From Burkholderiales bacterium (lineage in GTDB: Bacteria; Pseudomonadota; Gammaproteobacteria; Burkholderiales; Burkholderiaceae_A), in the NCBI GenBank assembly GCA_027486725.1, contig JAIXOP010000003.1, positions 62,001-126,000 of the forward strand: a DNA stretch of 64,000 nt. Direction: 5' to 3'. Numbering within the stretch: the first letter of the stretch is position 1; each line of letters opens with the position of its first letter. This document shows positions 54,799-64,000 of this stretch, piece by piece. The position numbers were made by a program, and so were the translations under genes. The notes under the pieces are model-generated. The model was given only the letters and a program-made list of their open reading frames with translations, was not told the origin of the DNA and ran no database searches.

Positions 54799-55398
54799 TC
54801 ACTCGTGGCCGGGCCGTCGGGTCCGCGCCAGGGCCTTGGCGATGGTGGTGTTGCGCGGGCCAGGCTCGATCTCGATGGGGCCGGGGCGCAGCGGGCCGGG
54901 GCTGAGCACAGCGAGATACCAGCCGCTGCAGGCATGGTCGTACATCAGCCTCGCGGCCGTGGGCAGCCGGATTGCCGCGGCCAGTTTGTGGCAAGGGACG
55001 CGTGGTGCGGTGACCCGCAGAACCACATCGCCCTGGTGCCAAAGGTCGCCAACCCAGACCTCGTTGTCGGTCACCCCCTCCGTGCTGAGGTTTTCGCCCA
55101 GCCGGCCCGCAGTCCATTCGGTCAGTGCCGTGCCGGTGGCTGTCGCCCAGAGGGGCCAATGTTCCCGTGGGTAGGCATAGATTGCCTTGTCCAGCCCCCC
55201 ATGCACGCTGAGGTCGGCCTGCTCGTCCCCCTCCAAACCGAGGCGGCCTGCCCAGACGTCGGCCTCCGATCGGGGGGATTTTCGAATGGCGGTGGAGATG
55301 GAGCGCGGCGGCCCTCCGGCCGATGCCATCAGCAGGGGCGTTGCGATTCCGGTGCAGATGGCTCGAATCTGCGGGGCGGATGGTTTCACGTGAAACAC
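54799..55398 (-). CDS. MOSC domain-containing protein (GTG start inside parS)
   Basis: WAGRLGLEGDEQADLSVHGGLDKAIYAYPREHWPLW..., GENLSTEGVTDNEVWVGDLWHQGDVVLRVTAPRVPCHKL. Confidence 0.88.
   Translation of the reverse strand: MFHVKPSAPQIRAICTGIATPLLMASAGGPPRSISTAIRKSPRSEADVWAGRLGLEGDEQADLSVHGGLDKAIYAYPREHWPLWATATGTALTEWTAGRLGENLSTEGVTDNEVWVGDLWHQGDVVLRVTAPRVPCHKLAAAIRLPTAARLMYDHACSGWYLAVLSPGPLRPGPIEIEPGPRNTTIAKALARTRRPGHE
55382..55397. promoter_or_regulatory. parS: parS site (ParB centromere), core GTTTCACGTGAAAC
   Basis: GGTTTCACGTGAAACA versus consensus TGTTTCACGTGAAACA (one outer mismatch); 14-bp perfect palindrome core. Confidence 0.9.
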
Positions 55399-56390
55399 CG
55401 GGCCTCGGCCAGTTGGAGCGCTGCGTGGAGGGAGGCATCGGAGGCCAGGCCTCGGCCCGCCAAATCGAAGGCTGTGCCGTGGTCCACGCTGGTGCGCAGA
55501 AACGGCAGGCCCAGGGTCACATTGATGCCCTCGTCCAGGCCAAACAACTTGATGGGGATCAGGCCCTGGTCGTGATACAGACAGACCACGACATCGAACT
55601 CGCGGTCCTCTCGGCGGGCACGGAAAAACACCGTGTCGGGCGAGTGGGGGCCAGATGCCGCGGCACCCCTTTGTCGGGCCATCGCCAGGGCCGGCAGCAG
55701 GATCTCTTCCTCGTCGTTTCCGAACATGCCGCCATCGCTCGCGTGGGGGTTCAGTCCGGCCAGGGCAATGCGCAGCGGGTGGCCCAGTTGGAGGATGGCG
55801 GGCGCATGCTGGTGGGTGAGCGCAATGGTCTCGGCCACATGCGCGGCGCTGAGTTCGGCCAGGGCCTGCCGCAGGGGCATGTGGATGCTGTCCAGGACCA
55901 CCGTGAGGCTTGGGCTGGTGAGCATCATCCGAACCGGAAGCTCGGCGCGGCCCAGGAATTTCCGGGATGCCTCCTGAAGAACCTCGGTGTGCCCGGGTTC
56001 GTCATGGCCGGCGAGCCGCCAGGCCTGCTTGTGGATGGGGCCGGTCACCAGGGCAGAGCATTGGTGGTTCAGGCAGGCCGAGATGGCCTGATCCAGGGCG
56101 GCGCGGGAGATGTCGCCGGCGGTGGCCGAGAGCTCCCCGGGGGTGCAGGGGGAGTCTTGGGGCGGCGATATCAGGTGGGGGACGAGGTTCTCGAGGGGCT
56201 CGGCCATGCGGAGCTGATCGTGGGCCCGGCGCAGCGCCAGGGCGCTTCCAAAGACCACCGTCCGTTGGCGCAGCGCAGCCGGCCGCCGAGCCATGGCCTT
56301 CAGGGTGATTTCGGGGCCGATCCCAGCGGGGTCGCCCAGGCTGAGGGCAATGGGCGCGCCCAGGGTGGGCAATGGGGTGCGTGGGTTCAT
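55386..56390 (-). CDS. pdxA: 4-hydroxythreonine-4-phosphate dehydrogenase
   Basis: [40 protein letters not shown]...[44 protein letters not shown]. Confidence 0.95.
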
Positions 56391-56479
56391 GGGTGCATTC
56401 TCCCCCATTCCTCCCGCCGGACCCCCGGTTTCCCTGCCACACAGGCCGTCGCCGCCCCATTGGCACCCGGCGTTCAAGG

Positions 56480-56495
56480 TGTTTCACGTGAAACA
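56480..56495. promoter_or_regulatory. parS: parS site, perfect consensus
   Basis: TGTTTCACGTGAAACA exact; embedded in 22-bp palindrome AGGTGTTTCACGTGAAACACCT (56477-56498). Confidence 0.95.
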
Positions 56496-56559
56496 CCTGG
56501 CCCCCGGGCATATCATTCTGTGCATCACCAACCCTTTGCCCAGTCCGTTCGGCCTTCCC

Positions 56560-58104
56560 ATGACCCCGACCTACTCTTCCGCTCAGGTCCAGCGCCCGCT
56601 GGACGCCCTAACCAACTGGCCGCACCGGCCGGCGGACGGCACGCCGGTCGGCATGGCGCCCATCACCAACCCCGCGACCGGCGAGGTGGTTCGCGAGGTC
56701 GCGCTGTCGTCGGCGGGCATGGTCGACGCTGCCGTGGCCCGGGCCGTCGCTGCCGCCCCGGCCTGGGCCAACACCCCGCCCCTGCGCCGCGCCCGCATTC
56801 TGTTCGCCTTCAAGGCCTGGATCGAAGAGAACCGGGACCGCCTTGCGGCGGTCATCACCGAGGAGCACGGCAAGACCTTCGACGATGCCCGGGGCGAGGT
56901 CCAGCGGGGCCTCGAGGTGGTCGAGTTTGCCTGCGGCATCCCTCAGCTTCTCAAGGGCGAGCTGACCGAGGATGTTGGCACGGGGGTGGATGCCTGGACA
57001 GTGCGGCAGCCGCTGGGCGTCTGCGTTGGCATTACTCCCTTCAATTTTCCGGTGATGGTTCCGTTGTGGATGGCGCCGATGGCACTGGCCTGCGGCAACC
57101 CCTTCATTCTCAAGCCCTCCGAGAAGGACCCCTCCGCATCCCTGCTGCTGGCCGAGGGCCTCGCTGCCGCAGGCCTGCCCGAGCATGTGTTTCAGGTCGT
57201 CCAGGGTGGCATCGAGGCCGTCCATGCCCTGATCGACCATCCCATGGTCTCGGGCATCAGCTTCGTGGGCTCCACGCCGGTGGCCAAGGCCGTCTACGAG
57301 CGCGCAAGTCAGCATGGCAAGCGCTGCCAGGCGCTGGGGGGTGCAAAGAATCATTTGGTGGTCATGCCCGATGCCGACCTCGATGCGGCGGTGGAGGGTC
57401 TGATGGGCGCAGCCTATGGCTCGGCCGGAGAGCGCTGCATGGCGATCTCCGTGGCCGTGGCCGTGGGCGCTGTTGCGGAGCCCCTGCTGCAAAAGCTTCG
57501 CGCCCGCGCGGCCTCCATTCGAGTGGCGCCGGGCATGGTGGCCGGAGCCGACATGGGCCCGCTCATCTCTGCCGCCCATCGGGACAAGGTGCGCAGCTAC
57601 ATCGATCTGGGCGTGTCGGAGGGGGCCGAGCTGGTGGTCGATGGCCGAAACCCCGCTGCCTTTGCCCAGGGCGAGGCCTTGCCCGCGGAGGGCTTCTTTC
57701 TTGGCCCCACCCTCTTTGACCATGTTCAGCCCAGCATGCGCATCGCGCAGGAGGAGATCTTTGGGCCGGTGCTCTGCGTGATTCGCGTGGAGCGATTCGA
57801 AGACGCCATGGCGGTGATTGCCCAGCATCCCTTTGCCAATGGCGTCTCCATCTTCACCCAGGACGGTGCAACCGCGCGCCGCTTTGCCCGCGACATTCCG
57901 GTGGGCATGGTCGGCATCAATGTGCCCATTCCGGTGCCCATGGCCTTTCACTCCTTCGGTGGCTGGAAGGCCTCGCTCTTTGGTGACCACCACATCCATG
58001 GCCCCGAGGGCGTGCGCTTCTACAGCCGCCATAAGGCGGTGACCGAGCGCTGGACCACGGCCGCGGGCAATGCGTCGGCATTCACCATGCCCGTGGCGCG
58101 CTGA
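56560..58104 (+). CDS. mmsA: Methylmalonate-semialdehyde dehydrogenase (CoA-acylating)
   Basis: Aldehyde dehydrogenase; [59 protein letters not shown]. Confidence 0.9.
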
Positions 58105-59537: not shown

Positions 59538-59564
59538 AGGACCGTGGAACGCGTGGGTGGATGA

Positions 59565-61514: not shown

Positions 61515-62279
61515 GTGCGGGATCAGATTCAATCGGGTGCCCTGGCCATGGGCATTGCGCTCGCGCCCGAGGTGGTCGCCGGCCTTGAGGCCTTCGCCCT
61601 GCAGTTGCTGACCTGGAATCGCACCCACAGCCTCACGCGCCTCGACCGGCCCGAGGCCGTGGTCGAGGACCTCACGCTCGACGCCTTGGCTGCCCTTCCC
61701 CACCTTCGGGAAGTGCCCGCCACCGGCCACCTGCTCGATGTGGGCTCGGGCAATGGCTACCCCGCCATCCCCTTGGCCCTGGCCATGCCCGAGCATGCCT
61801 TTGGCATGGTGGAACGCGTGGCCCGCAAGGCGGCCTTTCTGCGCAGCGCGGTGGCCCGCCTGGGCCTGAGCTCCCGGGTGACGGTCTATGAGCAGGATGT
61901 CGCCCGGCTGACCCGGAGTCGGCTGCCCCGAGGCGAAGCCCCCGCCGTGGTGACATCGCGCGCCTACGCCAAGCCCGATGTCTTTCTCTCGACCACCCAG
62001 CATCTGGCGGGGCCCGAGACCCGCCACCTCTATTGGGCGGGGGCGCAAGAGATTGCCCGCTGGCTGGGTGATAATTTGCCCCTGCATCGCGCGGGGGAAA
62101 CCGCCGACCGCAGCCCACAGCGCACGACTTCCCACGACCTTGCCGGCGATTCGCCCAGGCTGGTCCAGACCCTTGCTCCCGGCGGCAGGTCGAGAGCGTT
62201 CTTGTGGCTGAGGGCGTCGTACGGATCCCCTGCGCCCCGACCATCCCAGCTCACCCCTTCATCTCCGACTGCCCCATGA
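61515..62279 (+). CDS. rsmG: 16S rRNA (guanine(527)-N7)-methyltransferase RsmG (divergent, GTG start)
   Basis: FALQLLTWNRTHSLTRLDRPEAVVEDLTLDALAALP...GHLLDVGSGNGYPAIPLAL...ERVARKAAFLRSAVARLGL; position after mnmG. Confidence 0.8.
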   Translation: MRDQIQSGALAMGIALAPEVVAGLEAFALQLLTWNRTHSLTRLDRPEAVVEDLTLDALAALPHLREVPATGHLLDVGSGNGYPAIPLALAMPEHAFGMVERVARKAAFLRSAVARLGLSSRVTVYEQDVARLTRSRLPRGEAPAVVTSRAYAKPDVFLSTTQHLAGPETRHLYWAGAQEIARWLGDNLPLHRAGETADRSPQRTTSHDLAGDSPRLVQTLAPGGRSRAFLWLRASYGSPAPRPSQLTPSSPTAP

Positions 62280-63139
62280 CTCAGCGCTCCACCCCTGCCG
62301 CTCCGACCGCCGCGCCATCGCGGGCCCAGGTCTTTGCTGTTGCCAATCAGAAAGGCGGCGTGGGCAAGACCACCACCTCTGTGAATTTGGCGGCGGCCAT
62401 GGCTGCTCTGGGTTACCGCGCCCTGCTGGTGGACCTCGACCCACAGGGCAATGCCACCATGCATGCGGGCATCGACAAGATGGCCCTCGATGCCACGGTC
62501 TATCACATGCTGGTTGGCCTCAAGGGCTTTCGCGATGTCTGCCAGCGATCTCCGGCGGGCTTCGATGTGCTGCCCGCCAACCGCGAGCTGGCGGGCGCGG
62601 AGCTCGAACTGGTCGACTTCGAAGACCGCGAGCATCGACTGCGCCAGGTCTTGAATGCCGAGGCGGCCAACTACGACCTGGTGGTGATGGACTGCCCCCC
62701 GTCCCTGTCCATGCTCACCCTCAACGGGCTGTGCGCCGCCGACGGCGTCATCATTCCCATGCAGTGCGAGTACTTTGCCCTCGAGGGCCTGACCGACCTG
62801 GTCAACTCGATCGGTCGCATCCACGCCGGTCTCAACAAAGGCCTGCGCATCATCGGCCTGCTGCGCGTGATGTTCGACACCCGAATGACCCTCTCGCTGC
62901 AGGTGAGCGAACAGCTCGACGCACACTTCGGTGACAAGGTCTTCCAAACCGTGATTCCCCGCAATGTGCGGCTCGCGGAGGCCCCGAGCCACGGCATGCC
63001 CGTGCTCCAGTACGACGCCGGATCCCGTGGGGCCCAGGCCTACAAGCGCTTTGCGGCAGAGCTCTGCCAGCGCCTGGGGCTAAAGCCCACCCCGCAGCTG
63101 CAGGCCCAGGCCGCAGCACCCCTGGTCGATGCCGACTAG
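62276..63139 (+). CDS. parA: Chromosome partitioning ATPase ParA/Soj
   Basis: VFAVANQKGGVGKTTTSVNLAAAMAALGYRALLVDLDPQGNATMHAGI; ATGA overlap with rsmG. Confidence 0.97.
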   Translation: MTQRSTPAAPTAAPSRAQVFAVANQKGGVGKTTTSVNLAAAMAALGYRALLVDLDPQGNATMHAGIDKMALDATVYHMLVGLKGFRDVCQRSPAGFDVLPANRELAGAELELVDFEDREHRLRQVLNAEAANYDLVVMDCPPSLSMLTLNGLCAADGVIIPMQCEYFALEGLTDLVNSIGRIHAGLNKGLRIIGLLRVMFDTRMTLSLQVSEQLDAHFGDKVFQTVIPRNVRLAEAPSHGMPVLQYDAGSRGAQAYKRFAAELCQRLGLKPTPQLQAQAAAPLVDAD

Positions 63140-63188
63140 TCCTGGTCGCCCCACACCCTCCAACACCCTCATCCCACAGACCATCTCC

Positions 63189-64000
63189 ATGAGCAAAAAG
63201 CGCGGCCTCGGTCGGGGCCTGGAAAACTACTTCGGCAATACCGCGGCCCTGGCCACGGGCGACGCCGGCACCACCGCCATTGCCCTGGGCGATCTGCAGC
63301 CCGGCCACTACCAGCCGCGCAAGGACTTCTCGCCCGAGGCCCTCGAGGATCTGGCGGCCTCGATTCGCACCCAGGGTGTGATGCAGCCCATCCTGGTGCG
63401 CCCTCTGCCCCCGGGCCGTGGCGCTCGCTATGAAATCATCGCGGGCGAGCGGCGCTTTCGTGCCTCCCAGATGGCGGGCCTCTCGGAGATCCCCGCCCTG
63501 GTCCGCGAGGTCGACGACCAGAAGGCCCTGGCCATGGCCCTCATCGAGAATCTTCAGCGCGAGGACCTCTCGGCGCTCGAGGAGGCCGAGGGCATTGAGC
63601 GCCTCATTCAGGAATTCGGCCTCACCCACGAGCAGGCGGCCGAGGCCGTGGGCCGATCGAGGTCGGCCACCTCCAATCTCCTGCGCCTGCTGGGACTTCC
63701 AGCCCCAACGCGCGAGGCGCTGCGGGGGGGCAGGATCGACGCCGGCCATGCCCGCGCCCTGCTGGCCCTGCCCGAGGCCCTCCATACCCCCCTGCTGCAG
63801 TCGATTGCTGCCGAAGGGCTGTCGGTCCGCGAGGTGGAGAACCGCGTGCGCGACTGGCTCGCCAAGACCGGTGGCCAAGACGGCGGCCGGACCACGGCCC
63901 GTGGGGCGGGCGGCAAGTCCAGTGGTTCGGGCGGCTCGGGCGGCTCCTCGGCCGATTGGGGCCGCATGGAGCGGCTGTTGGCCGATCAGCTCGGCCTCTC
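63189..64000 (+). CDS. parB: Chromosome partitioning protein ParB/Spo0J (runs off window end)
   Basis: MSKKRGLGRGLENYFGN...YQPRKDFSPEALEDLAASIRTQGVMQPILVRP...YEIIAGERRFRASQMAGL...ALIENLQREDLSALEEAEG; open-ended so absent from the ORF track. Confidence 0.97.
   Translation, partial: MSKKRGLGRGLENYFGNTAALATGDAGTTAIALGDLQPGHYQPRKDFSPEALEDLAASIRTQGVMQPILVRPLPPGRGARYEIIAGERRFRASQMAGLSEIPALVREVDDQKALAMALIENLQREDLSALEEAEGIERLIQEFGLTHEQAAEAVGRSRSATSNLLRLLGLPAPTREALRGGRIDAGHARALLALPEALHTPLLQSIAAEGLSVREVENRVRDWLAKTGGQDGGRTTARGAGGKSSGSGGSGGSSADWGRMERLLADQLGL

Follow-up and report, generated by a model that had tools for sequence, protein, structure and literature searches.

We found that a 16-bp element in a Burkholderiales bacterium, which is very probably a real chromosomal parS (parS-1), lies across the junction of pdxA and a MOSC-domain gene, and that its letters also supply the stop codon of the first gene and a start codon of the second. 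The window is the whole stretch of DNA that was analysed, 64,000 nucleotides long, and all positions refer to it. We are fairly confident that a canonical chromosomal parS was relocated in this lineage onto an older junction of overlapping genes, where it has taken on no extra role; the overlap of parS, stop and start is real, but looks rare and fortuitous.

A probable parS near dnaA and parAB

The elements and genes that bear on the identification of the site are as follows.

55382–55397: parS-1, GGTTTCACGTGAAACA on the plus strand and TGTTTCACGTGAAACC on the minus strand, 15 of 16 positions identical to the chromosomal parS palindrome
56480–56495: parS-2, a perfect TGTTTCACGTGAAACA, between the divergent genes pdxA and mmsA
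62204–63139, plus strand: parA (PF13614, 1.3e-58)
63129–64000, plus strand, continuing to 64115 past the end of the window: parB (ParB_N, HTH_ParB and ParB_C domains)

From 55398 down to 55382, the minus-strand sequence is GTGTTTCACGTGAAACC, that is GTG TTT CAC GTG AAA CC. The 16-mer at 55382–55397 matches the chromosomal parS TGTTTCACGTGAAACA with a single mismatch, which falls in the outer base pair, where the outermost T is replaced by G in one arm only (T1G). Two sites with at most three mismatches to parS are present in the window, compared with 0.10 expected, and none of 100 shuffles yielded two. The second is parS-2, which the earlier note had overlooked and which is 1,098 bp away from parS-1. 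A pattern search of the assembly (1.66 Mb) returned only these two sites, even with one mismatch allowed in the 14-base core, and because the assembly is 84% complete, further copies may be missing from it. We also considered whether one of the two had been duplicated from the other, but their flanks match at 7 of 9 bases on a single side only, which is suggestive at best. The perfect copy is in frame with the open frame of mmsA, from GTG 56479 (56479–56496, GTG TTT CAC GTG AAA CAC, VFHVKH), so that a gene caller may set the mmsA start there; the likeness of mmsA to its relatives begins only ~44 residues past parS-2.

The gene for ParB, which had been described as encoded in this window, does begin there at 63129 but is only partly inside it. 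By its domains the protein is a canonical ParB (ParB_N 1.9e-36, HTH_ParB 6.9e-31, ParB_C 2.3e-10), with Spo0J (1vz0, 1e-51) as its best solved match, and a cognate ParB with both the HTH and the CTP-binding N domain is thus encoded close to parS-1. The distance from parS-1 is ~7 kb to dnaA, ~7 kb to parA and ~8 kb to parB, which places the site in the origin region as judged by these genes; noise in the GC skew of the region prevented a placement of the origin. As listed, the frames of rsmG (61515–62279) and parA share 76 bp, since parA has an upstream GTG as its first available start; the real start of parA is probably downstream, at the ATG of MTQRSTPAAP.

A mismatch in the outer pair, with a perfect copy 1.1 kb away, might suggest that parS-1 is decaying or no longer functional and that only the copy at 56480 works. 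We regard this as unlikely, because the outer pair tolerates change in the closest system that has been tested: with the single-arm T1G change in Burkholderia parSc1, binding of ParBc1 was retained by SPR, by EMSA and in an in vivo incompatibility assay (PMC5450999). Moreover, the same variant, GGTTTCACGTGAAACA, identical to the parS-1 16-mer, is the sole exact-core parS of the congener G004, and the HTH and recognition helix of the ParB of G004 are nearly identical to those of this lineage (GRSRSATTNLLRLL versus GRSRSATSNLLRLL). ParB should therefore be able to bind parS-1 in this organism as well.

The pdxA/MOSC junction inside parS-1

The genes and codons at the junction are all on the minus strand.

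55386–56390, minus strand: pdxA, 4-hydroxythreonine-4-phosphate dehydrogenase (TIGR00557, PF04166)
55386–55388, minus strand: TGA stop codon of pdxA, inside parS-1
54799–55398, minus strand: MOSC-domain gene, starting at 55398 or 55389 (PF03473, 1.2e-28)
55396–55398, minus strand: GTG start of the MOSC gene as proposed in the earlier note, with a GAGG stretch 4 nt upstream
55387–55389, minus strand: alternative GTG start of the MOSC gene (MKPSAPQ...), giving a 4-bp GTGA overlap with the pdxA stop

In its different frames, on either strand, a parS inevitably reads as a TGA stop (TGT TTC ACG TGA), as possible starts (NTG TTT CAC GTG AAA) or straight through (VSRET), and each of its strands carries GTGA (CAC GTGA AAC). 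The assignment of pdxA is firm (327.9 bits with TIGR00557, against a cut-off of 290), and its 3′-end reads ...GCC CGG TGT TTC ACG TGA and finishes at 55386, which bears out the earlier note in placing the last codons and the stop of this gene within parS. An open frame of 798 aa at 55323–57719 on the plus strand runs antisense to pdxA; it is of the kind typical of GC-rich DNA and has no independent support.

The start of the MOSC gene is less clear, and the protein itself scores under the threshold set for the YiiM-type equivalog NF008577. The earlier note had put the start codon and codons 2–5 within parS; an open frame can indeed start at GTG 55398, but the residues FHVK are not established as part of the protein, since GTG 55389 is at least as likely a start. 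GAGG lies 4 nt from GTG 55398 and 13 nt from GTG 55389, a spacing that speaks somewhat for the former. From GTG 55389, which lies in the middle of parS-1, the N-terminus has a length like that of most relatives (for example MNTPTSK-LLAICTG in the family member G015), and the protein from 55398 is three residues longer. We lean modestly towards 55389 as the start rather than 55398. Both codons are inside parS-1 (GTG 55398 with the last two bases of the site and the preceding base), and hence the dual use holds regardless of the choice: the genes overlap by GTGA with the start at 55389, or by 13 bp with the start at 55398. Thus, the claim that both protein termini are constrained by parS stands insofar as CFT* and the first MOSC residues use parS letters, while MFHVK as the beginning of the protein is uncertain.

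Position of parS in relatives

In all 24 members of the genus and family with sequence covering the region, a parS is located just upstream of mnmG, including a copy with two mismatches in G014. None of these 24 relatives has a parS at pdxA/MOSC, and the position of parS-1 is therefore not one common to its relatives, although position is not a strictly defining trait of parS. In the window, the 27-bp gap upstream of mnmG contains no full parS, and only a fragment of the site is found there.

59544–59550, minus strand: isolated half-parS GTTCCAC, in the place of the relatives' full parS and ~15 bp upstream of mnmG

This half-site may be a relic of the lost parS, which is a post hoc reading, with four isolated half-sites per 64 kb. 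Taken together, parS appears to have shifted by 3–4 kb in this lineage and is now found on both sides of pdxA; the direction of the move is read from the uniform state of the relatives.

For the junction itself, we compared nine relatives in which pdxA is followed by MOSC. The earlier note had suggested looking in relatives for whether the two termini go together with parS, and this comparison supports the connection: a parS is absent from this place in all nine, as are a PdxA end in CFT* and a MOSC start with FHVK. In three congeners among them (G001, G002 and G004), pdxA and MOSC overlap by ATGA, without parS and in the same register as GTG 55389, which points to that codon as the start here, and in the remaining relatives the first plausible MOSC start is ~10–25 bp past the pdxA stop. 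A stop-start overlap was thus probably present in the ancestor, with the short gap in the other relatives making this less than certain. Among 80 homologous MOSC loci from other genomes, none has a parS core, and pdxA is in the flank of only one (L007), with a junction sequence identical to that of G015.

Stop and start codons among surveyed parS sites

We surveyed 192 distinct exact-core parS sites of Pseudomonadota, among which Burkholderiales were numerous. Genes were called by codon usage with a caller of our own making, which is rough, so that single classifications can err. Sixty-five percent of the sites were outside called genes, compared with 18% for control positions shifted by 40–350 bp. 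Only parS-1 provided both a stop and a start (1 of 192, against 0.2 expected by chance); three sites, parS-2 among them, provided a start only (3.1 expected), and two a stop only (1.8 expected). parS avoids the bodies of coding regions but shows no attraction to stops or starts, and we rejected the idea of parS as a general stop-start element for want of enrichment among the surveyed sites. Other parS sites with same-strand open frames on both sides were also discarded as candidates, since the coding score did not call these frames genes. Among the hits listed by literature searches in openly available papers, none described a parS at a start or stop codon.

Tandem parS arrays are present in two genomes of one Burkholderiales family, with 13 copies at a spacing of ~220 bp in G395 (contig C61:134635–137276, L242) and 4 copies spaced by exactly 389 bp in G356 (contig C1:396580–397760, L241). 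These look like repeat-array centromeres.

A regulatory role of parS-1 is improbable

If the dual function had been selected, ParB at the junction, or a hairpin formed by the parS letters in mRNA, would tune expression of pdxA-MOSC, and the overlap would have been kept for regulation. A small hairpin is indeed predicted (−3.1 kcal/mol for these letters alone), covering the stop, GTG 55389 and, in part, GTG 55398, and the intergenic sites parS3 and parS4 of Pseudomonas aeruginosa repress adjacent promoters together with ParB at native ParB levels (PMC5521831). However, the intragenic sites parS1 and parS2 left neighbouring expression unaltered in the same study, also at native levels, and genes adjoining parS were unaffected by loss of Spo0J in Bacillus subtilis (PMC7022226). 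Furthermore, the arrangement is shared by no relative, and use of junctions is not enriched among the 192 sites. The earlier note expected ParB occupancy to sit exactly on the translation-coupling junction. The idea that it acts there is weakened, because coupling of translation is an event on mRNA and not on DNA, and intragenic parS sites elsewhere have little effect. We therefore consider selection for a dual function quite improbable, and the specific proposal that parS-1 sets the amount of MOSC protein made per PdxA, through ParB occupancy or the hairpin, very improbable; if true, it would link a pair of metabolic genes with the segregation complex and its state. A chance match shaped by coding needs alone has practically no likelihood, since, short as the motif is, 0.003 one-mismatch copies would be expected per 1.66 Mb assembly under a simple model that takes the window's base composition, and a perfect parS is found within 1.1 kb and parAB and dnaA within ~8 kb.

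Relocation of a canonical parS onto an existing junction would account for the observations as follows. parS would have left its family position upstream of mnmG, with one copy now on the pdxA/MOSC junction, where the GTGA within parS would have replaced ATGA while still ending pdxA and starting MOSC. The stop and the start would then be tolerated by-products of this GTGA, and parS-1 would load the ParB encoded ~8 kb away and act with parS-2 in chromosome segregation. We infer the ancestral state of the junction, the direction of the relocation and the absence of a further regulatory role from these comparisons.

Comparison with known systems

Two modest points on genome evolution emerge, with no sign of new biology. 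A centromere could fit into packed coding DNA, in that GTGA on both of its strands takes over a stop-start overlap and neither gene is broken, and within one lineage parS seems able to move away from a place, upstream of mnmG, that is otherwise family-wide.

Like the chromosomal parS of ParABS systems (B. subtilis, or Burkholderia parSc1), parS-1 is a 16-bp palindrome in a dnaA-parAB region with a canonical ParB, but it differs in its outer-pair mismatch, in its stop-start junction and in its location away from mnmG. In P. aeruginosa PAO1, 9 of 10 parS sites are predicted within coding sequences (PMC4368675), and the sharing of letters between parS and codons is thus already known. As in these intragenic sites, the letters of parS-1 double as codons, but they additionally supply the stop and the start of two genes, which was seen once in 192 sites. 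Finally, pdxA/MOSC resembles the ATGA and GTGA gene pairs that are coupled by termination-reinitiation, with a stop-start overlap that is ATGA in three congeners, and differs from them in that its overlap sits at the centre of a parS.
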